Source of the DNA: Terriglobus tenax
GTDB taxonomy: Bacteria > Acidobacteriota > Terriglobia > Terriglobales > Acidobacteriaceae
Length of the DNA: 64,000 nt
Reading direction: 5' to 3'
Assembly (NCBI RefSeq): GCF_025685395.1
Contig: NZ_JAGSYA010000004.1
Location: 1,364,001 to 1,428,000, forward strand
In this document: piece after piece, positions 45,177 to 54,684 of the stretch
Layout of the letters: the number at the start of each line of letters is the position of its first letter
How positions within the stretch are numbered: the first letter of the stretch is position 1
Made by a program: the position numbers and the translations under genes
The notes under the pieces: generated by a model
Seen by the model: the letters and a program-made list of their open reading frames with translations, nothing else
What the model was told of the DNA's origin: nothing
Database searches by the model: none

Positions 45177-45935
45177 TTAGAAGCGGTCGCGGAGGACTGC
45201 GCCGACGATGCCACCGATGGCTCCTGCACCGGCATCTTCGCGGACACGTTCGGTGGTCATGTACTCCTGCAGGGAGTGGGCGAGGCGCGAGAGCGGCAGC
45301 GTCTGCAGCCACACGCGCCCCGGGCCGGTGAGCTGGGCCAGGAAGATACCGTCGCCGCCGAAGAGCATGTTCTTGATGCCGGGGACGGTGGTGATCTGAA
45401 AGTTGACGTTGCCGTGGAAGGCGCCGACATGGCCCGGATGGACGCGCAGGACTTCGCCAGGCTGCAGGTCTTTGACGACGACCTCGCCGGAGAGTTCGAG
45501 CCAGGCGGTGCCGTGGCCTGCGACCTTCTGCAGAATGAAGCCTGAGCCGCCGAAGATGCCTGCTCCGAGTGATTGCTGGAAGCCGACGCCGATCTGGATT
45601 TGCGAGGTGGCGCAGAGGAAGCCGTGGCGGTGAATCATGTACTCGTGGCCGGGTGAGACCTCGACAGGGACGATGTGGCCGGGAACCTTGGTGGCGAAGG
45701 CGACCTCACCGGGATAGTTGAAGGCTCGGTACTCGGTCATGAAGAGTGAGCCGCCGCCGGCCATGCGCTTGATGGCTCCGAAGAAGCCGCCGCCACCGCC
45801 GTACTGGGTGTGGGTCTGCATCTGGATGGACTGCGACATCCAGGAGAGCTCGCCTGCTTCGGAGATGACGGAGTCGCCGGGTTCGAGCAGAAATTCGAGG
45901 ACGGGCATGGTGGTTCCGGTGATGCGGCTTTGCAT
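45177..45935 (-). CDS. AIM24/TIGR00266 family protein
   Basis: A 252-residue protein of the AIM24 family, built of tandem beta-sandwich repeats: PVLEFLLEPGDSVISEAGEL, GGGFFGAIKRMAGGGSLF, YPGEVAFATKVPGHIVPVEV, TAWLELSGEVVVKDLQPGEV and GIFLAQLTGPGRVWLQTLPL. All match TIGR00266 signatures. Bacterial functions are not established; the mitochondrial namesake affects inner-membrane organisation. No signal peptide is seen. A short glycine-rich end (AGAGAIGGIVGAVL) may associate with membrane. Confidence 0.9.
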   Translation of the reverse strand: MQSRITGTTMPVLEFLLEPGDSVISEAGELSWMSQSIQMQTHTQYGGGGGFFGAIKRMAGGGSLFMTEYRAFNYPGEVAFATKVPGHIVPVEVSPGHEYMIHRHGFLCATSQIQIGVGFQQSLGAGIFGGSGFILQKVAGHGTAWLELSGEVVVKDLQPGEVLRVHPGHVGAFHGNVNFQITTVPGIKNMLFGGDGIFLAQLTGPGRVWLQTLPLSRLAHSLQEYMTTERVREDAGAGAIGGIVGAVLRDRF

Positions 45936-46112
45936 AAGGGTGGTGCTCCTTCGAGTGGATTCTACGATGGAGAGGGCTCCGCGGTTCCGTATTCGGAGGA
46001 GGCAGCTGCGTGGAGAATGGGCGTGGACTGGCGATGGTGGCGCTGATAGTCTCGCAAAAAAGACTTTGTTTCCTGCCTAACCAATAGGCGTTCCAGCTGT
46101 CCAAAAGCCACC

Positions 46113-46973
46113 ATGGGAAAACTCACGAATCTTCTTCTTGCGCTCTTCGTGTGCTCCATTGCCTGCAGCGGCGTGGCGCAACAGACTGCGACTGTTCCGC
46201 TTAGTCCAAGCTATGAAGTTGCCAGCATCAAGCCAAGCAATGCGACGGATAACCGCGCCATGCTGATGTTCCGCGAGGGTCGTTTGCAGATGAAGAACTT
46301 CCCTCTTATCGGACTGATCAGCTTTGCTTACGACATCAAGTCCGACACCCTGCTGACCAGTGTGCCGGAGTGGGTGAAGTCGGAACGGTATGACGTAGAG
46401 GCAAAAGAAGAGGAAGCAGAGGCCAAGGAAGTAGCCAAACTACCGCAGGAAGAGCGCACGAAGATTTCGCGATTGATGGCGCAGAAGCTGCTGACGGAGC
46501 GGCTGCATCTGAAGCTGGTTCCGGAGCCGAAGGAGTTGCCGGTCTACCTGCTGGTGGTGGCGAAGTCTGGTGCGAAACTGCAGCCGGCAAAGCCGCCGGT
46601 GGAGGGGCAGGAGCCTGCCGCGGGGCCGGGTGGGCCGCGGATGCGGCGCGGCATCATGATGAGCGGGCCGGGAGATTTCTCCGGTATGGACGCCACAGTG
46701 GAGCTTCTGGCAAACGTGGTCTCGCACGTGCCGGAGACGAGCGACCGGCTGGTGATTGATAAGACCGGCCTGACCGGCCACTATGACTTCCATCTGAAGT
46801 GGACACCGGAGATGGCCGGCTCTGCCGCCCGGGGCAACGATGGCGCAACCGCAGAAGCCGGGCCATCGCTGTTCACGGCCCTGGAAGAACAGCTTGGCCT
46901 GCGGCTGGAACGCGGCAAGGAAACGGTAACCACCTACCGGGTGGAAGCCATCGATCATCCGACAGAGAACTAA
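46113..46973 (+). CDS. TIGR03435 family exported protein, copy 1
   Basis: A 286-residue secreted protein with a signal peptide (MGKLTNLLLALFVCSIACSG, cleavage after VAQ). It carries the TIGR03435 sequence landmarks in order: YEVASIKPSNA, LIGLISFAYDI, MAQKLLTERLHLKLVPEPKE, PVYLLVVAKSGAKL, DKTGLTGHYDFHLKW and a C-terminal SLFTALEEQLGLRLERGKE ending HPTEN. The family is known almost only from soil Acidobacteria and relatives and has no assigned function. It is the first of two tandem copies, 21 bases apart. Confidence 0.93.
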   Translation: MGKLTNLLLALFVCSIACSGVAQQTATVPLSPSYEVASIKPSNATDNRAMLMFREGRLQMKNFPLIGLISFAYDIKSDTLLTSVPEWVKSERYDVEAKEEEAEAKEVAKLPQEERTKISRLMAQKLLTERLHLKLVPEPKELPVYLLVVAKSGAKLQPAKPPVEGQEPAAGPGGPRMRRGIMMSGPGDFSGMDATVELLANVVSHVPETSDRLVIDKTGLTGHYDFHLKWTPEMAGSAARGNDGATAEAGPSLFTALEEQLGLRLERGKETVTTYRVEAIDHPTEN

Positions 46974-46994
46974 ATCAGGGGAGCTTTCGTATAG

Positions 46995-47852
46995 ATGGCC
47001 ATGCAGAGACTTCTGGCACTTACTTTCTTAGCGGCTACGTGCGCCGTACAGGCTCAGACCGTGCCGCAGAAGCACAGCTTTGAGGTGGCATCGGTTAAGC
47101 CGTCCGCTGCGAACAATGACAATGTCAGCGTGAACACCACGCCCCACCGTATGCAGTTTGATAATGTGCCGCTGCAGCAGATTCTGTTGATGAGTTTTGG
47201 CATCCGGTCTGCTTCGCAGCTTGAGGGGCTTCCGGACTGGGCAACAAGCGCGCGCTACAACATTGATGCGAAGACAGACGAAGAGACCTCCGCGGCCATG
47301 GCGAAAGTGCCGCGCGAGGAGCGGCAGAAGTGGCAGCAGGAAATGATGCAGAGCATGCTGGAGGACCGCTTCCACATCAAGTTCCACTGGGGCAAAAAGG
47401 ATCTGCCGGTGTATGCACTGACGGTGGCGAAGAGCGGCAGCAAATTGAAAGAGGCTGTTATGCCACCTTTGCCGCCGGATGCTGATCCGAAGTCGAAACC
47501 GAAAGACCCCGGGACGAGCTTCAGCGTGAGCGATGGGACCATGGACGTCAAGAATGCCAGCATGGAAGCGTTTGTGGATCACCTGTCACGTATGGGCGAG
47601 ATGGATGGGCGCGTTGTGCTGAATCATACGGGCCTGACGGGCCGGTATGACTGGACGCTGGAGTGGTCTCCGGAGCGGCCGCAGGCGGGCTTTCATGGCA
47701 CCGATGGCGGCGGAGCCGCATCGGCAGCCGATACCTCGAAACCGACACTCTTTACCGCGCTCCAGGAGCAGTTGGGATTGAAGATGGAGCAGGACAAGGC
47801 TCCGGTGGACTTGTTGATCATCGATCACCTGGAACAGCCGACGGAGAACTAA
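46995..47852 (+). CDS. TIGR03435 family exported protein, copy 2
   Basis: A 285-residue paralogue of the preceding protein. The signal peptide is MAMQRLLALTFLAATCAVQA (ATG at 46995 or 47001). Landmarks: FEVASVKPSAA, LQQILLMSFGI, GLPDWATSARYNIDAK, MLEDRFHIKFHWGKKDLPVY, NHTGLTGRYDWTLEW and LFTALQEQLGLKMEQ with the final EQPTEN. The two are clearly diverged, so the duplication is not recent. The 120 bases downstream contain a BlaI/MecI-like operator and lead to the receptor gene. Confidence 0.93.
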   Translation: MAMQRLLALTFLAATCAVQAQTVPQKHSFEVASVKPSAANNDNVSVNTTPHRMQFDNVPLQQILLMSFGIRSASQLEGLPDWATSARYNIDAKTDEETSAAMAKVPREERQKWQQEMMQSMLEDRFHIKFHWGKKDLPVYALTVAKSGSKLKEAVMPPLPPDADPKSKPKDPGTSFSVSDGTMDVKNASMEAFVDHLSRMGEMDGRVVLNHTGLTGRYDWTLEWSPERPQAGFHGTDGGGAASAADTSKPTLFTALQEQLGLKMEQDKAPVDLLIIDHLEQPTEN

Positions 47853-47920
47853 GTCCATGCCCCGACACTTTATCCCGGAACAAAAATGACTGGCGCGCGT
47901 ATTGCCGTGTAGCGCACTAT

Positions 47921-47936
47921 TACTACATCCGTAGTA
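47921..47936. promoter_or_regulatory. BlaI/MecI-like operator
   Basis: TACTACATCCGTAGTA is a perfect dyad outside a four-base centre. It matches the classic BlaI/MecI operator core TACTACATATGTAGTA at 14 of 16 positions. It lies 37 bases before the receptor ATG at 47973, where a repressor would block transcription. blaI and blaR1 are not in this window. Confidence 0.6.
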
Positions 47937-47972
47937 GATATCTAGAGGACGGTTGCATTGGTCAGGAAAAAG

Positions 47973-50900
47973 ATGAGTTTGTTTCGAGCCTTCCAGAAGG
48001 TGTGTGCACCGCTTCTGCTGGTGTCTGCCGCGTTTGCCGCTGACCAGCGCGGACAGGTACTGTATGGCGGCTTCCCTGTTCCAGGAGCCGTGATTACAGC
48101 GACGCATGCCGGAACGACAGCTACGGCCGTAACCGATGAACAGGGCTTCTACACGCTTGTGAACCTGGCCGACGGCGCGTGGTCAGTGAAGGTCAGCAAG
48201 CCTGCCTTTGCAACGGTGACGCAGGAAGTAAATGTCTCCGCCGCCGCGGCCGATGCGGCAAAGTTCGAACTGAAGCTGCTGCCGCTGGCAGAGATCCATG
48301 CACAGCCTGCCGACCAGCCGATTGCCCCTGTCGTGACCGCAAGCGCAACGCCTGCCGTCACCAAAAAAGGAGACGGCAAAGAGGAAGCAGCTGCGCCCGC
48401 CGCGACGCAGGAGGCGAAGAACAATGACGGCCTGCTGATCAACGGCAGTGTGAACAATGGAGCCTCTTCTCCGTTTGCGCAGTTTGCCGCCTTTGGCAAC
48501 CGCCGCAATCACCGTGCGCTTTATAACGGCAGCGTGGGAGCAATCTTTGGCAACGCAGTGTTTGACGCGAAGCCATACTCCATCTCTGGCCTGAATGTGG
48601 ACAAGCCTGGCTACTACCGCTTTACCGGGCTGGCAACGCTGGGCGGGCCGCTGCGGATTCCGCACCTGATTACGCGCGTGGTGAATGCTCCGACCTTTTT
48701 TGTGGCCTACCAGTGGTCGCGGAATCGCAATGCCACCTCTTACTCGGCGTTGATGCCGACACAGGCGCAACGCAACGGCGATCTGTCCGCGGTGACGACG
48801 CCGATCATCAACCCGGTAACGGGAGCTCCGTATGCCAACAACCAGGTGCCGATATCGCCGCAGGCGGCGGCTCTGCTGCAGTATTACCCGCTGCCGAACC
48901 TGGCTGGAAGCTCGCGCTATAACTACCAGACGACGCTGCTGAACACCTCGCATGCGGACGCTCTGCAGGCGAGAGTGGATAAGACGATTGACCGCAAAAA
49001 CCAGGTGTATGGCAGCTTCAACTTCCAGTCGCTACGCGGGTCGTCGAACACGGTATTCCACTTCGTGGACCGGACCAAGAATGTTGGCCTTGCGGGAGGC
49101 GCGAACTGGTCGCACCGCATCAATGGCCGCTGGTCATTCAACGTGGGCTACAAGTTTGCGCGGCAGACCCAGCGCACGACCGCGTACTTCCAGAACGGCG
49201 TGAACGTGAGCGGCAATGCTGGCATTACCGGCAACAACCAGGACCCGTTCAACTATGGGCCGCCGACACTGTCGTTTGCCAGCGGCATTGCCGGACTGAC
49301 GGACAGCATCCCTGCCTTCAACCGCAACCAGACGCAGACAGCAACCGGCGCCGTGCAGTGGAACCGTGGCCGGCACAATGTGACCTTTGGCGGAGAGTAT
49401 CGCCGCCAGCAGTACAACTATTTTACGCAGCAGAATCCGCGCGGTGCGTTTGCCTTTACCGGAACGGCGACGGGCAATGACCTGGCAGGCTTCCTGGTGG
49501 GCGTGCCGGACACAAGCCAGCTGGCAACCGGTAACCCGGACAAGTACTTCCGGCAGAACCAGATCACGGCCTATGCAACGGACGACTTCCGCATGACACC
49601 GACCTTCACCGTCAACGCGGGCATTCGCTGGGAGTACGGAGCGCCGATCACCGAGTTGAAAGACCGCATGGTGAACCTGGATATTCTGCCGGACTTCAGT
49701 GCTGTGTCACAGGTACTGGCCTCGTCACCGACGGGCAGACTGACCGGACAACATTATCCTGATTCGCTGGTGCGGCCCTTCCGCAAGGGCTTCCAGCCGC
49801 GCGTGGGCATTGCATGGCGGCCGATTCCGGCGTCGTCGGTGGTGGTGCGTGCGGGTTACGGTATTTACTTCGACACCTCGGTCTACCAGACCACCGCGTT
49901 GAAGATGGCGCAGCAGGCTCCGCTGTCGACGTCACTTTCCGTCCAGAGGTCAAGCACCTGCCCCATCACGCTGGCCAACGGCTTCCAGAACTGCGCCGGC
50001 ATTACGTCGAATACCTTTGCGGTGGACCCGCGGTTCCGCGGCGGATATGTGCAGGACTGGCAGCTTGCCGTGCAGCGTGACCTGCCGTTCTCGCTGCAAT
50101 TGACGGCGACGTATAACGGGTTGAAGGGGACCCATTCCGCGCAGCAGTTTCTGCCGAACACCTATGCCTATGGAGGCACGGATCTTTGCCCGTCGTGCCC
50201 GAACGGCTATACGTACCTGACCTCTGGCGGCAACTCCACGCGCAACGCCGGACAGGTGCAGCTGCGCCGGCGCCTGCATAGCGGGTTTACGGCAACAGTG
50301 GATTACACCTACGCCAACGCGATCGACAATGCGTCGTTCCTTGGTGGACAGAATGCTTCCTCTGGTACGGGGACGACGTCGCAGAATCCGTTTGCGGTGG
50401 CTGCTCCAACGACGACCAACGATACGACGATTGTGCAGAACTGGCGCGACCTTCGCGCAGAGCGTGGGCGTTCGGCCTTCAACCAGCGGCATACGCTGGC
50501 TTTGACCGCGCAGTACACCAGCGGTATGGGAATGCATGGCGGAGCGCTGATGAACGGTAAGAGCGGCACCCTGCTGAAGGAGTGGACTCTGCTGGGGCAG
50601 ATTGTTGCCAACAGCGGCCAGCCGCAGACACCGATCTATCCTGTGGCAACGCCCGGCACCGGTGTGACCGGCAACCTGCGCGCACAGCTTACGGGGGCAG
50701 ATGTCTATGCCGCGCCCGCGGGACTGCATCTGAATCCCGCGGCGTATACGACTCCGGTTGCCGGAAGCTTTGGCAACGCGGGGCGGAACTCGATTACGGG
50801 CCCCGGGCAGTTCCGGTTGAATGCGTCGCTGTCGCGTACCTTCCGCGTGAAGGGCGATATGAACCTGGACATTCGGGCGGATGTGACCAATGCGATGAAC

Positions 50901-51011
50901 CATGTTGCGTTTACGCGCTGGAACACGACGCTGACTTCCACACAGTTTGGTCTACCCGCGGCTGCCAATGACATGCGCTCCGTGCAATTCACTTCGAGGC
51001 TGAGGTTCTAA
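47973..51011 (+). CDS. Oar-like TonB-dependent receptor without a clear plug
   Basis: A 1,012-residue outer-membrane protein. The ATG at 47973 has AGGA close upstream (a TTG at 47958 is an alternative). Signal peptide, then a carboxypeptidase-regulatory-like domain at about residues 25-100 (GFPVPGAVITATHAGTTATA) and a Pro/Ala linker. It passes directly into FDAKPYSISGLNVDKPGYYR and a large barrel (LDALQ-type strands, FGGEYRRQQYNYF, GITWRY-like NAGIRWEYGAP, ITGPGQFRLNASLSRTFRVK), ending in an aromatic residue (SRLRF). The RGF/VLKGP plug motifs seen in the receptor at 4263 are missing. The VWFA gene follows one base later. Confidence 0.88.
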   Translation: MSLFRAFQKVCAPLLLVSAAFAADQRGQVLYGGFPVPGAVITATHAGTTATAVTDEQGFYTLVNLADGAWSVKVSKPAFATVTQEVNVSAAAADAAKFELKLLPLAEIHAQPADQPIAPVVTASATPAVTKKGDGKEEAAAPAATQEAKNNDGLLINGSVNNGASSPFAQFAAFGNRRNHRALYNGSVGAIFGNAVFDAKPYSISGLNVDKPGYYRFTGLATLGGPLRIPHLITRVVNAPTFFVAYQWSRNRNATSYSALMPTQAQRNGDLSAVTTPIINPVTGAPYANNQVPISPQAAALLQYYPLPNLAGSSRYNYQTTLLNTSHADALQARVDKTIDRKNQVYGSFNFQSLRGSSNTVFHFVDRTKNVGLAGGANWSHRINGRWSFNVGYKFARQTQRTTAYFQNGVNVSGNAGITGNNQDPFNYGPPTLSFASGIAGLTDSIPAFNRNQTQTATGAVQWNRGRHNVTFGGEYRRQQYNYFTQQNPRGAFAFTGTATGNDLAGFLVGVPDTSQLATGNPDKYFRQNQITAYATDDFRMTPTFTVNAGIRWEYGAPITELKDRMVNLDILPDFSAVSQVLASSPTGRLTGQHYPDSLVRPFRKGFQPRVGIAWRPIPASSVVVRAGYGIYFDTSVYQTTALKMAQQAPLSTSLSVQRSSTCPITLANGFQNCAGITSNTFAVDPRFRGGYVQDWQLAVQRDLPFSLQLTATYNGLKGTHSAQQFLPNTYAYGGTDLCPSCPNGYTYLTSGGNSTRNAGQVQLRRRLHSGFTATVDYTYANAIDNASFLGGQNASSGTGTTSQNPFAVAAPTTTNDTTIVQNWRDLRAERGRSAFNQRHTLALTAQYTSGMGMHGGALMNGKSGTLLKEWTLLGQIVANSGQPQTPIYPVATPGTGVTGNLRAQLTGADVYAAPAGLHLNPAAYTTPVAGSFGNAGRNSITGPGQFRLNASLSRTFRVKGDMNLDIRADVTNAMNHVAFTRWNTTLTSTQFGLPAAANDMRSVQFTSRLRF

Positions 51012-51012
51012 T

Positions 51013-53136
51013 ATGCGCAAACTGCTGCCATTGCTGCTGATTCCATCGCTACTTGCCCAGCAGACCGGCTCCAACAAGGCGTCGGCTGACGGGCAGGAGC
51101 AGGTATTCACCATGCGTGTGACCTCAAACCTGGTGGTTGAGACGGTCACGGTGAAGGACAAGAAGGGCAACCTGATTCCTGGCCTGACGGCGAAGGACTT
51201 CACCATCACGGAGAATGGCGCGGAGCAGAACATCCGCCTGTTCGAATTCCAGAAGCTCTCGGACCCTTCTGCGGCAGTGCCGCTGGAGCCATCGAAGAAC
51301 GAGACGGAGAAGGTAAAGATTTACGATCGTCTGTCCCGTTCCCAGATCGCGGGTGAGTCGGCGGGAGCGACGAAGTATCGGGATCACCGGCTGATGGCGA
51401 TGTACTTCGATATGAGCTCCATGCCGCCGGTGGACCAGTTGCGTGCGCTGCAGGCTGCGGAAAAGTTTGTCCGCACGCAGATGCTGCCGGAGGACCTGGT
51501 GTCGATTCTGCGGTATGGCGGCGGCGCGGTGGATGTGCTGCAGGACTTTACCGCGGACCGCAACCGGCTGCTGTCGATTCTGCAGACGATGATCGTCGGC
51601 GAAGGCCAGGGCATGGCAGGCGATAACTCCGGCGATGGGACTTCGGACCCGGGAGCGGCTTTCGGACAGGACGATGCCGAGTTCAACATCTTCAACACCG
51701 ACCGGCAGCTTGCGGCGTTGCAGACGACGGCGGACATGCTGGGCCGCGTGAGCGAAAAGAAGTCTCTGCTCTACTTTGGGTCGGGACTGAGCCTGAACGG
51801 TCTGAACAACCAGGCCCAGTTGCATGCCGCAACGAATGCCGCGATTCGTGCGGGGGTTTCGTTCTGGCCGATTGATGCGCGTGGACTGGTGGCGACTCCG
51901 CCGATGGGCGATGCCACGCAGAGCTCGCCCGGCGGGCTGGCCATGTATACGGGCGCCTCAGCGACCTCTGTCACCAACGCGCGCGTGCAGTCGCAGGACA
52001 CGCTGTTCGCTCTGGCGGAAGATACCGGCGGCAAGGCATTGCTGGATAACAACGATCTGACACGCGGCATCCGCAACGCGCAGCAGGCGATGTCGAGCTA
52101 TTACCTGCTGGGCTACTACACCACCAATGCGGAGAAGGATGGAAAGTTCCGCCGCATCAAGATCACGCTGAACAACGGGCAGGAGGGGGTGCTGGAGTAT
52201 CGCCAGGGCTATTACGCAGGCAAGGACTTCTCGAAGTTCAATACTGCGGATAAGGAGCGTCAGCTGGAAGACTCGCTGATGCAGCCGGACCCGGTAACCG
52301 ACCTGACCATTGCGATGGAAGTGAACTTCTTCCAGTTGAATCGCGCGGAATATTTTGTACCGATCGCGGTGAAGATTCCGGGGCGTGAGCTGGCGCTGGC
52401 GAAGAAGCGTGGCGCACAGCACACGATGATCGACTTTATCGGTGAAGTGAAGGACAGCTACGGAAGCACCGTGCAGAACCTTCGCGATACGGTAGACATC
52501 AAGCTGACCGACTCGACGGCGCAGGAGCTGGCGACACGGCCGATCCAGTACGACGGCGGCTTCACCCTGCTGCCGGGCAAGTATGTCATCAAGTTCCTGG
52601 CGCGTGACAACGAAACAGGCCGAATCGGCACTTACCAGGCCAGCTTTACCGTACCGAACCTGAACAAGCAGACGGAGCGGCTGGCGATCAGCTCGGTCGT
52701 TCTGAGCAGCCAGAGGGTAGCGACTTCGCAGGCGCTGTTCAACGTGGAGAAGCAGAAGCAGCAGGCGAAGAACGATGCGGTAAACCCGCTTATGATCGGC
52801 GGGGAGAAGCTGATTCCTTCCGTGACGCGTGTCTTCCATCATGCGCGTCCGGCAACGATCTTCCTGCAGGCGTATCAGCAAGGCACCACCCCGGCTGAGC
52901 CTCTGTTGGCCTATGCCACCTTCTTCCGCACACACGATGGAAAGCAGGAGGTGGCGATGCAGACGCCGACGGTGATGGCATCCAACGCAAGCGCGACGCA
53001 GCTGCACGTTACACCGATTGCCATGACGATTCCGCTGGACCAGCTTGAACCGGGCGAGTACACCTGCCAGGTGACGGTGCTGGGGGCGGCGGACCAGAAG
53101 AGCTTCTTCTGGCAGGCGAAGGTGCAGGTGCAGTAG
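51013..53136 (+). CDS. VWFA-related protein (TIGR03436 type)
   Basis: A 707-residue exported protein; the signal peptide is MRKLLPLLLIPSLLAQ. An N-terminal TIGR03436 strand block (TSNLVVETVTVKDKKGNLIP, GLTAKDFTITENG) leads into a von Willebrand factor A domain at about residues 120-350. The metal-site motif reads YFDMSSMPP, a degenerate DxSxS in which the last Ser is Met. YYLLGYYTTNAEKDGKFRRI follows, with a large C-terminal beta region without a known domain. It starts one base after the receptor stop, so it is translationally coupled. A matrix- or partner-binding role at the surface is plausible. Confidence 0.9.
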   Translation: MRKLLPLLLIPSLLAQQTGSNKASADGQEQVFTMRVTSNLVVETVTVKDKKGNLIPGLTAKDFTITENGAEQNIRLFEFQKLSDPSAAVPLEPSKNETEKVKIYDRLSRSQIAGESAGATKYRDHRLMAMYFDMSSMPPVDQLRALQAAEKFVRTQMLPEDLVSILRYGGGAVDVLQDFTADRNRLLSILQTMIVGEGQGMAGDNSGDGTSDPGAAFGQDDAEFNIFNTDRQLAALQTTADMLGRVSEKKSLLYFGSGLSLNGLNNQAQLHAATNAAIRAGVSFWPIDARGLVATPPMGDATQSSPGGLAMYTGASATSVTNARVQSQDTLFALAEDTGGKALLDNNDLTRGIRNAQQAMSSYYLLGYYTTNAEKDGKFRRIKITLNNGQEGVLEYRQGYYAGKDFSKFNTADKERQLEDSLMQPDPVTDLTIAMEVNFFQLNRAEYFVPIAVKIPGRELALAKKRGAQHTMIDFIGEVKDSYGSTVQNLRDTVDIKLTDSTAQELATRPIQYDGGFTLLPGKYVIKFLARDNETGRIGTYQASFTVPNLNKQTERLAISSVVLSSQRVATSQALFNVEKQKQQAKNDAVNPLMIGGEKLIPSVTRVFHHARPATIFLQAYQQGTTPAEPLLAYATFFRTHDGKQEVAMQTPTVMASNASATQLHVTPIAMTIPLDQLEPGEYTCQVTVLGAADQKSFFWQAKVQVQ

Positions 53137-54513
53137 CTAAGCCAGCACGTAGGGTTTACGCTGTGGACGGCTGAGGTAACGGTTGGCATCTTCGTCGTTG
53201 AGGAAGTGCTCTTTCACGGGGTCCCAGCGCAGGCGGCGGCCTGTCTTCATGGCGATGTGGTGGACCAGGCAGGTAGAGCAGGCGCGATGACCGATCTCTG
53301 CCGGGGCAATGGGTTGCTTGCGGGAACGGATGCAGTCGAGCCAGTTTCCGTGCTGGTCCTCGCTGTAGTAGAGATGAACCTCGCTGGGACCGATGACGCT
53401 GTCGAGAATCTTCGGGTCGCTGGCAACCAGCGGCTCGATCTTTGCCTTCTCGCCAAAGCCGGCGGTGGGCGTCGTGCCTTCGTCGCGACAGACGAAGATC
53501 CAGCCCTTGGTGCCGTAGAACTTGATGCCGTTCTGGAACTCGCCGCTGATGGTCATGGTCATGCCGTTGGCGTAAACAGCATTAGTCTTGAAGGCTCCGT
53601 GTACGTCCCATAGTCCGGACTTCGGAAACTCGGCTGTTCCCCACACCTCCACCGGGCCGGTAAGTTCGGTGTTCATGCCCCAGTGCGCGGTATCAACGTG
53701 GTGCGCGCCCCAGCCGGTGATCATGCCGGCGCCGAACTGTTCACAGCGCAGCCAGCCCGGACGGTCAAAGCTGTTGGTGGGCATGACACGATCGAGCGTG
53801 TAAGGGACCACAGGCGTGGAGCCGAGCCATGCGTCGTAGTTGAAGCCCGCAGGCACAGGCATCGGCGTTGGGTCTCCGCCGGAGGGATCACCCGGCAGGC
53901 CGATCTCAACATGCTTGATCTCTCCAATGCGGCCGTTGCGCACCAGTTCGCAGGCCCGGCGGAACTGCTTCCAGGAGCGCTGCTGGGAGCCGATCTGCAG
54001 GATGCGGCCTGACTTGTTCACCGCCTCGACCATCGCGCGGCCCTCGGCGATGGTGAGCGAGGCAGGCTTCTGCAGGTAGACGTCTTTTTTCGCCCGCACG
54101 GCAGCTACGGCCAGGATGGCGTGCTGGTGGTCGGGCGTGGAGATCACCACGGCGTCGATGTCTTTGTTGGCCAACAGATCGTGATAGTTGCTGTAGCCGA
54201 CGGTGCCCTGGTAGGGCTTGCCTGATTTTTTTGTATAAACGCCGTCGATCAGTTCCCTGCCCAGCTTTACGCGGTTCTCGTCCAGATCACAGACGGCGAG
54301 AATGTGCGCGTTGTCGTACTTCCAAAGGCCGGGCAAATCGTGGATACGGGAGATGCGGCCCACGCCGATGGCACCGATGTTGATGCGGTTGGAAGGCGCG
54401 TTCTGGCCAAAGACACTGCGCGGCACGATGGTGGGGAAGCCGGCTGCCGCAGCGGCGGCCACGGTGGTCTTCAAAAACTGGCGGCGGGATGACTGGGGCT
54501 TCTCAAACGGCAT
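53137..54513 (-). CDS. Tat-exported Gfo/Idh/MocA-family oxidoreductase
   Basis: A 458-residue NAD(P)-dependent oxidoreductase. The ATG at 54513 gives a Tat signal (SRRQFLKTTVAAAAAAGFPT). The Rossmann fold begins INIGAIGVGRISRIHDLPGL and continues with AVVISTPDHQHAILAVAAVR and VYLQKPASLTIAEG, where the Lys of the family's EKP-like motif is kept. WLGSTPVVPYT and GWGAHHVDTAHWGM are typical of the exported subgroup acting on sugars. Its stop abuts the convergent VWFA stop with no gap. The likely role is oxidation or epimerisation of a sugar in the periplasm. Confidence 0.9.
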   Translation of the reverse strand: MPFEKPQSSRRQFLKTTVAAAAAAGFPTIVPRSVFGQNAPSNRINIGAIGVGRISRIHDLPGLWKYDNAHILAVCDLDENRVKLGRELIDGVYTKKSGKPYQGTVGYSNYHDLLANKDIDAVVISTPDHQHAILAVAAVRAKKDVYLQKPASLTIAEGRAMVEAVNKSGRILQIGSQQRSWKQFRRACELVRNGRIGEIKHVEIGLPGDPSGGDPTPMPVPAGFNYDAWLGSTPVVPYTLDRVMPTNSFDRPGWLRCEQFGAGMITGWGAHHVDTAHWGMNTELTGPVEVWGTAEFPKSGLWDVHGAFKTNAVYANGMTMTISGEFQNGIKFYGTKGWIFVCRDEGTTPTAGFGEKAKIEPLVASDPKILDSVIGPSEVHLYYSEDQHGNWLDCIRSRKQPIAPAEIGHRACSTCLVHHIAMKTGRRLRWDPVKEHFLNDEDANRYLSRPQRKPYVLA

Positions 54514-54684
54514 GAACAGAACCTCGCTGTCTACGGAAACGCGCAACGGCATGGCCGTGGAGCCCGACCATAGTACATAGTTCGATGGGCGAAGTATAAG
54601 GGTTTTGTGACAACGGCTGGAGTATGTGGACTTACCCGGGGACAGGTGTTTGCAAGATCGTCAGTATTTACGCGAAGGAAGAGA

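Follow-up and report, generated by a model that had tools for sequence, protein, structure and literature searches.

Four plus-strand genes of Terriglobus tenax, lying together in a 64,000-nucleotide stretch of contig NZ_JAGSYA010000004.1 (the window, meaning the whole stretch analysed), raise the question of whether two TIGR03435 (Pfam DUF3738) proteins, an Oar-type outer-membrane barrel (the receptor) and a TIGR03436 protein with a von Willebrand factor A (VWFA) domain form one system, and what is controlled by a dyad among them. The window members score above the curated cut-offs of NCBIfam TIGR03435/Pfam DUF3738 and TIGR03436, whose family descriptions give no function. We read the module as the output genes governed by a proteolytic switch of the BlaI/BlaR1 type with a TIGR03435 sensor, and give this reading a probability of about 0.6. 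The module is real and conserved, and a BlaI-type switch is likely; the parts belong to known families, and the sensor swap and the set of targets look new.

A conserved gene neighbourhood

A first-pass annotation had listed two tandem TIGR03435 genes, a BlaI-type dyad, a receptor and a TIGR03436/VWFA gene set one base behind it, and open reading frames and family scores agree with that layout. The two TIGR03435 proteins (a and b) score 192.7 and 215.5 bits against a curated cut-off of 40, and the VWFA protein scores 238.9 bits for TIGR03436 (cut-off 81.25). The receptor, 1,012 residues from its ATG or 1,017 from an alternative TTG start at 47958, has an N-terminal CarboxypepD_reg domain (PF13620; 46.4 bits, cut-off 32.3) and a barrel that matches OMP_b-brl_4 (PF25183) with 503 bits. 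All four proteins are apparently exported, judging by eye from signal-peptide-like N-termini.

Relatives were collected by a scan of named genomes with the window VWFA protein, and the best 80 of 232 related loci were analysed. After setting aside 14 loci with less than 1 kb upstream of the receptor frame and 4 without a receptor in the examined DNA, 62 remained, and in 59 of these the nearest upstream of five sought families is TIGR03435, on the same strand and either free or fused to an M56 protease. This count permits a gap as wide as 1.2 kb (the widest first gap measures 795 bases) and considers only the five families in between; the exceptions are L087, L101 (BlaI only) and L113. The conserved neighbourhood in relatives that the first-pass annotation had made its decisive test is therefore present. 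A BlaI match occurs in 30 of the 80 loci, and where 4 kb or more is available (58 loci) the gene chain itself includes BlaI in 28, of which 27 also carry an M56::TIGR03435 fusion. A complete chain usually runs BlaI, M56::TIGR03435, none to three additional TIGR03435 genes, receptor and VWFA, which bears out the idea of a sensed system; a similar order with an unfused M56 protease is found in another family of the phylum (L182).

Co-occurrence across genomes points the same way. When 150 genomes of the family were searched with the window VWFA protein and the seven best candidates per genome scored, 17 genomes (own included) held its clade at 59–90% identity, apart from a paralogue clade at 34–42%. 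TIGR03435 occurs in 16 of these 17 and in 12 of the 133 others (Fisher p 3.5e-13, in a test that treats genomes as independent, five of them belonging to one genus). The exception, G114, has a BlaI gene running into a stop-interrupted VWFA frame with no receptor or TIGR03435 gene adjoining (L043 8483–11028, with VWFA turned to the plus strand), and by its sequence appears to be a decayed module. The T. tenax genome has 22 TIGR03435 and 16 TIGR03436 matches. As for the suggestion that the system is special to Acidobacteria, TIGR03435 gave no match in 14 control genomes and is patchy in the wider phylum, where 11 of 149 genomes exceed the cut-off; two of the 80 VWFA loci (L102 and L122) lie in metagenome-assembled genomes (MAGs) labelled Pseudomonadota and are perhaps misbinned acidobacterial DNA.

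The dyad and its matching regulator

An exact dyad, TACTACATCCGTAGTA, sits in the gap that separates TIGR03435 gene b from the receptor gene (Table 1), and we take its sequence to resemble the bla/mec operators. The 4.36-Mb genome has the exact pattern TACTAC-N4-GTAGTA twice, here and in front of a BlaI gene (L032), where a second copy with one mismatch lies 22 bases from the exact one. A symmetrised operator matrix was derived from 28 regions upstream of BlaI in other genomes; neither the window nor L032 was part of the training set. The window dyad scores 21.5 bits on this matrix, against 11.2 bits for the runner-up in the 64 kb, and the two L032 sites score 21.6 and 19.8 bits. Among 20.1 million simulated positions (first-order Markov model) none reached 21.4 bits and 15 reached 15 bits. 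The dyad thus looks like a genuine BlaI-type operator, as had been proposed. Across the 80 loci (1.33 Mb) all 23 sites of at least 15 bits sit at BlaI starts; most of these sites were used in training, so they point to specificity and not to sensitivity. Among BlaI genes of the module type outside training, six of seven (L032, L177, L186, L188, L189 and L190) carry a site scoring 16 bits or more, placed 22–48 bases before the domain, and the seventh (L187) has a best site of 13.8 bits. Only one of five other BlaI genes outside training has such a site (L181; not L033, L034, L182 or L185).

The operator-matched regulators of T. tenax lie about 850 kb from the window. At L032 the gene after BlaI (PF03965; 92.9 bits, cut-off 22.6) encodes a BlaR1-like M56 protease whose C-terminal domain is TIGR03435, and a further two TIGR03435 genes adjoin. 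This BlaI falls in one clade (99/98; tree with bootstrap not settled) with 28 of the 30 BlaI proteins of module loci. The other two BlaI proteins of the genome (L033 and L034) lie outside it, and their genes score 3.2 and 13.3 bits on the matrix. By eye, these two have a TTCGTACGAA-like dyad (L033 6580–6640) and a TACGAC..TCGT-like dyad (L034 5985–6035), and such differences suggest that operator types track BlaI types. All 27 fusions whose M56 match reaches 200 bits keep the protease motif HExxH (four weaker ones of the 31 were left out); in L032 it reads HEMEH.

We infer from these arrangements that the window may hold a split operon, with the regulator pair elsewhere and a putative operator left at the receptor. 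A separate dyad at the target genes was seen in the window only, and the position of the window operator is unusual among relatives. It also lies downstream of both TIGR03435 genes; direct control is therefore possible for the receptor and VWFA genes only, and joint control of all four genes by this dyad is not supported. Genome G128 has a BlaI of 57% identity that comes with an M56::TIGR03435 protease of its own, and sites at that place score 17.3 and 16.4 bits; its receptor has no dyad by a pattern search with up to two mismatches. A third site in the T. tenax genome (C3:1117132, at L035 7132–7149; 17.9 bits) was excluded from the BlaI regulon, its palindrome CTACTTCACAAGTAGTAA probably being the neighbouring gene's own; that gene is presumably a PadR-type regulator. 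A site at L037 scores 17.5 bits. Separately, both TIGR03435 genes in L052 and L053 are preceded by a recurring promoter-like element centred on GTATATC...GTGCAGCC.

Several observations weigh against control by BlaI. Of the 32 loci that lack BlaI and include 1 kb or more upstream of the receptor, none has an operator of at least 15 bits in the DNA examined. A promoter scan of 45900–48100 gave no sigma-70-like site near the dyad; a terminator scan of the same interval gave two terminator-like sites, at chance level. In the nearest relatives (T. albidus, G148, L071; and the MAG locus L070) four TIGR03435 genes run into the receptor, leaving no room for a separate promoter region. The T. albidus module is close to that of the window (VWFA 90% and receptor 84% identical), and that genome has no close BlaI and no site of at least 15 bits at the receptor; its sole match to the dyad pattern with one mismatch lies elsewhere and scores below 14 bits. 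BlaI control is hence not universal. The BlaI proteins of module loci L117 and L141 fall in other BlaI clades, as does that of L182, where the best site scores 8.3 bits and no TIGR03435 domain is fused. Finally, a Foldseek search with the TIGR03435 model gave no match among Protein Data Bank (PDB) structures (best E 0.2).

TIGR03435 as probable sensor domain and as free protein

The protease fusions suggest that TIGR03435 acts as their sensor domain. In a Pfam scan of three M56::TIGR03435 fusions (E up to 1), DUF3738 occupies the sensor position and no penicillin-binding family is found. The domain of protein b gave a confident AlphaFold2 (AF2) model (predicted local distance difference test score, pLDDT, 92.6), and a search of PDB sequences with the TIGR03435 profile returned one match with E 0.73. 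An STN-like fold was considered but found no support, a Pfam scan of 109 members giving DUF3738 in 109 and no STN. The T. tenax genome has one STN match.

When the labels fused and free were placed on a tree of 109 TIGR03435 domains, at least 23 changes were needed, 14 of them forced by well-supported branches. The tree was made by a quick method with approximate likelihood-ratio (SH-aLRT) support alone, and three of the changes may be one gain and two losses; a domain was scored as free where its frame has no M56 match, so that broken frames could add false changes. The labels are barely clustered, with 38 and 42 of 500 shuffles needing as few changes. Such repeated change suggests that one domain serves both as protease sensor and as free protein, and that lineages move between the two states. 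Co-evolution of fused and free domains within a locus had also been considered, but fused and closest free domain share a locus in just 4 of 16 cases, and this idea was replaced by that of repeated exchange.

The barrel and the VWFA protein

Structural modelling places the receptor among TonB-dependent transporters. Its best model has a mean pLDDT of 75.6 (five models, 52.7 to 75.6), and Foldseek returned TonB-dependent transporters with 6ofr as the best match (E 2.2e-20, TM-score 0.44/0.58). The CarboxypepD_reg N-terminal domain is present in all nine receptor relatives scanned. The first-pass annotation had called the receptor plug-less, which is right with one reservation: the plug family PF07715 was found neither in the window receptor (E up to 0.01) nor in the nine relatives (E up to 0.1), but residues 113–181 retain a shortened, mostly disordered stretch with conserved residues. 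Six control paralogues gave PF07715 over the cut-off in one and weakly in another (E 0.033), so its absence from Pfam lists alone is weak evidence. By subtraction, about 76–97 residues separate the N-terminal domain from the barrel in ten receptors, compared with 133–162 in the four of six paralogues that could be measured. The shortness and disorder of this stretch are better evidence for plug reduction than the missing Pfam match. Receptor alignment A2 was made without L093, L138, L124 and L120 of the 52 listed. In the VWFA protein the motif reads DMSSM, compared with DxSxS for the metal-ion-dependent adhesion site (MIDAS), and Pfam VWA_2 scores under its cut-off.

The proposed switch and its known relatives

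We propose that BlaI would occupy the dyad and repress the receptor and VWFA genes. An inner-membrane, BlaR1-like M56 zinc protease would carry, where BlaR1 has its penicillin-binding sensor, a TIGR03435 domain facing the periplasm; when a ligand meets this sensor the protease would cut BlaI and the genes would be turned on. In the envelope, free TIGR03435 proteins may bind a ligand or partner of that kind and, together with the Oar-type barrel and the VWFA protein, may jointly bind the ligand and move it across the outer membrane. In T. tenax, with the regulator pair about 850 kb away, this wiring would operate in trans.

Staphylococcal BlaI-BlaR1 and MecI-MecR1 are the closest parallels, with a BlaI-family repressor beside an HExxH M56 protease and a dyad operator (PMC9834060); in that system the BlaR1 protease cuts BlaI once its sensor is engaged (PMC9834060). 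The module differs from them in having a TIGR03435 sensor rather than a penicillin-binding one and an Oar-type barrel and VWFA protein as targets. The cyanobacterial PetR-PetP copper switch, described in a commentary (PMC7896320), pairs a BlaI-like regulator with a BlaR1-like protease and so provides a precedent for non-beta-lactam use of such a pair; its targets and signal are different, and the sections of that source considered here mention no TIGR03435. For the receptor, the comparison is with Myxococcus xanthus Oar, which also combines a CarboxypepD_reg N-terminal domain with a TonB-dependent-type barrel; Oar has a PF07715 plug with a TonB box, whereas the window plug segment is short and unrecognised (PMC6434023). 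No paper naming TIGR03435, DUF3738 or TIGR03436 (two alternative names included) was found in the open-licence literature, and no description of this operon appeared in titles or abstract beginnings among the open-licence matches listed. The sections considered of PMC7074687 and PMC3174227 hold nothing on BlaR, and those of the former nothing on M56 or VWA.

Alternative explanations

The module may serve surface binding or uptake, as the first-pass annotation suggested, and we rank ligand binding with inward movement ahead of export of TIGR03435 proteins. The export reading is nevertheless a serious rival, although we consider it improbable: the Oar-type barrel and the VWFA protein would secrete or display TIGR03435 cargo encoded across the genome, and the BlaR1::TIGR03435 protease would sense traffic through its cargo-like domain. 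M. xanthus Oar is required for secretion of PopC, which indicates that the Oar class can transport outward (PMC6434023). Copy numbers fit as well, since all 12 genomes with at least eight TIGR03435 matches have the VWFA clade and the 12 bearers without it have one to three. A shared C-terminus also speaks for export: P-S/T-x-N is the rule in alignment A3, fused or free, with a terminal N in 107 of 109 domains and D in two, in rows picked for a domain end no more than 12 residues away from the end of the frame. The window motifs lie at 46959–46970 and 47838–47849. Without such choice, N is the last residue in 17 of 20 TIGR03435 frames from T. tenax; of 21 frames from other genomes, 10 have a final N and 6 a final D, the remaining 5 having a different end or being cut.

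Against export, the same motif also closes inner domains of two-domain proteins, and is therefore not purely a tail signal. Nor do the N-termini look like varied passengers. Signal-peptide-like starts were found by a crude rule in 136 of 140 stand-alone TIGR03435 frames, and in 34 frames the domain is preceded by 100 residues or more; 32 of these 34 have a WQG/WQA stretch within their first 60 residues, and in the other two those 60 residues stop short of it. The long extensions thus look like one recurrent domain, which weakens the idea of TIGR03435 as a sorting tag for varied passengers. A GTWQGTL-like N-terminal domain before TIGR03435 is seen at L032 5285–5900, L081, L089 and others, and a Pfam scan of five members recognised nothing there. 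M. xanthus Oar deprived of its plug was less stable, yet reached the outer membrane and did not secrete PopC (PMC6434023), and the plug is short in the window receptor.

A less probable alternative holds that the dyad is a functionless leftover of a BlaI-BlaR1 pair that once stood between the TIGR03435 genes and the receptor. Such a position exists: in L073, L108, L121, L137 and L148, BlaI and M56::TIGR03435 sit between a TIGR03435 gene and the receptor, and the nearest relatives have no dyad. The near-perfect state of the window dyad speaks against decay, however, as does the BlaI that persists in the genome, which belongs to the matching clade and has sites of that type where its own gene begins.

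That the locus is a beta-lactam resistance switch is very unlikely. The BlaI and BlaR1 parts would suit it, and at L186 (7207–11389) a PF00144 beta-lactamase-family gene stands between BlaI and M56::TIGR03435 in one cluster, which suggests that the switch can have other targets. The Pfam scan of three fusions, however, reported no penicillin-binding domain, three fusions score 89–92 bits for NCBIfam blaR1_generic, far under the cut-off of 400, and the usual neighbours are the barrel and the VWFA protein. A chance assembly of neighbours with unrelated functions is hardly credible, being contradicted by the 59 of 62 loci and by the strong co-occurrence.

Coordinates of the locus

Directly past the VWFA gene, at 53137–54552, lies a convergent Gfo/Idh/MocA oxidoreductase gene with a Tat signal. 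The features of the module are collected in Table 1.

Table 1. Features of the module in window coordinates.
Feature	Position	Strand	Remarks
TIGR03435 (DUF3738) protein a	46113..46973	+	286 residues, stand-alone, signal-peptide-like N-terminus, ends PTEN
TIGR03435 (DUF3738) protein b	46995..47852	+	285 residues, stand-alone, ends PTEN
Putative BlaI-type operator TTACTACATCCGTAGTAG	47920..47937	.	dyad core 47921-47936
Oar-type outer-membrane barrel, CarboxypepD_reg N-terminal domain, shortened plug segment	47973..51011	+	
TIGR03436 VWFA-domain protein	51013..53136	+	707 residues

Meaning for acidobacterial envelopes

The module suggests a wider picture, which we offer tentatively. TIGR03435 may represent a new class of envelope sensor or recognition domain that BlaR1-type proteases have repeatedly captured from secreted proteins encoded nearby and released to them again. 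The dispersed free copies might then join the barrel and the VWFA protein in one acidobacterial envelope trafficking system, in which the barrel would be the common gate for TIGR03435 proteins encoded throughout the genome and the protease would read its state. TIGR03435 and TIGR03436, which occur in many copies in some soil Acidobacteria, become one testable system through the gene chain, the operator and the sensor-bearing protease. These findings suggest that a resistance-type switch may be re-aimed by trading sensor domains with the effectors that it controls.

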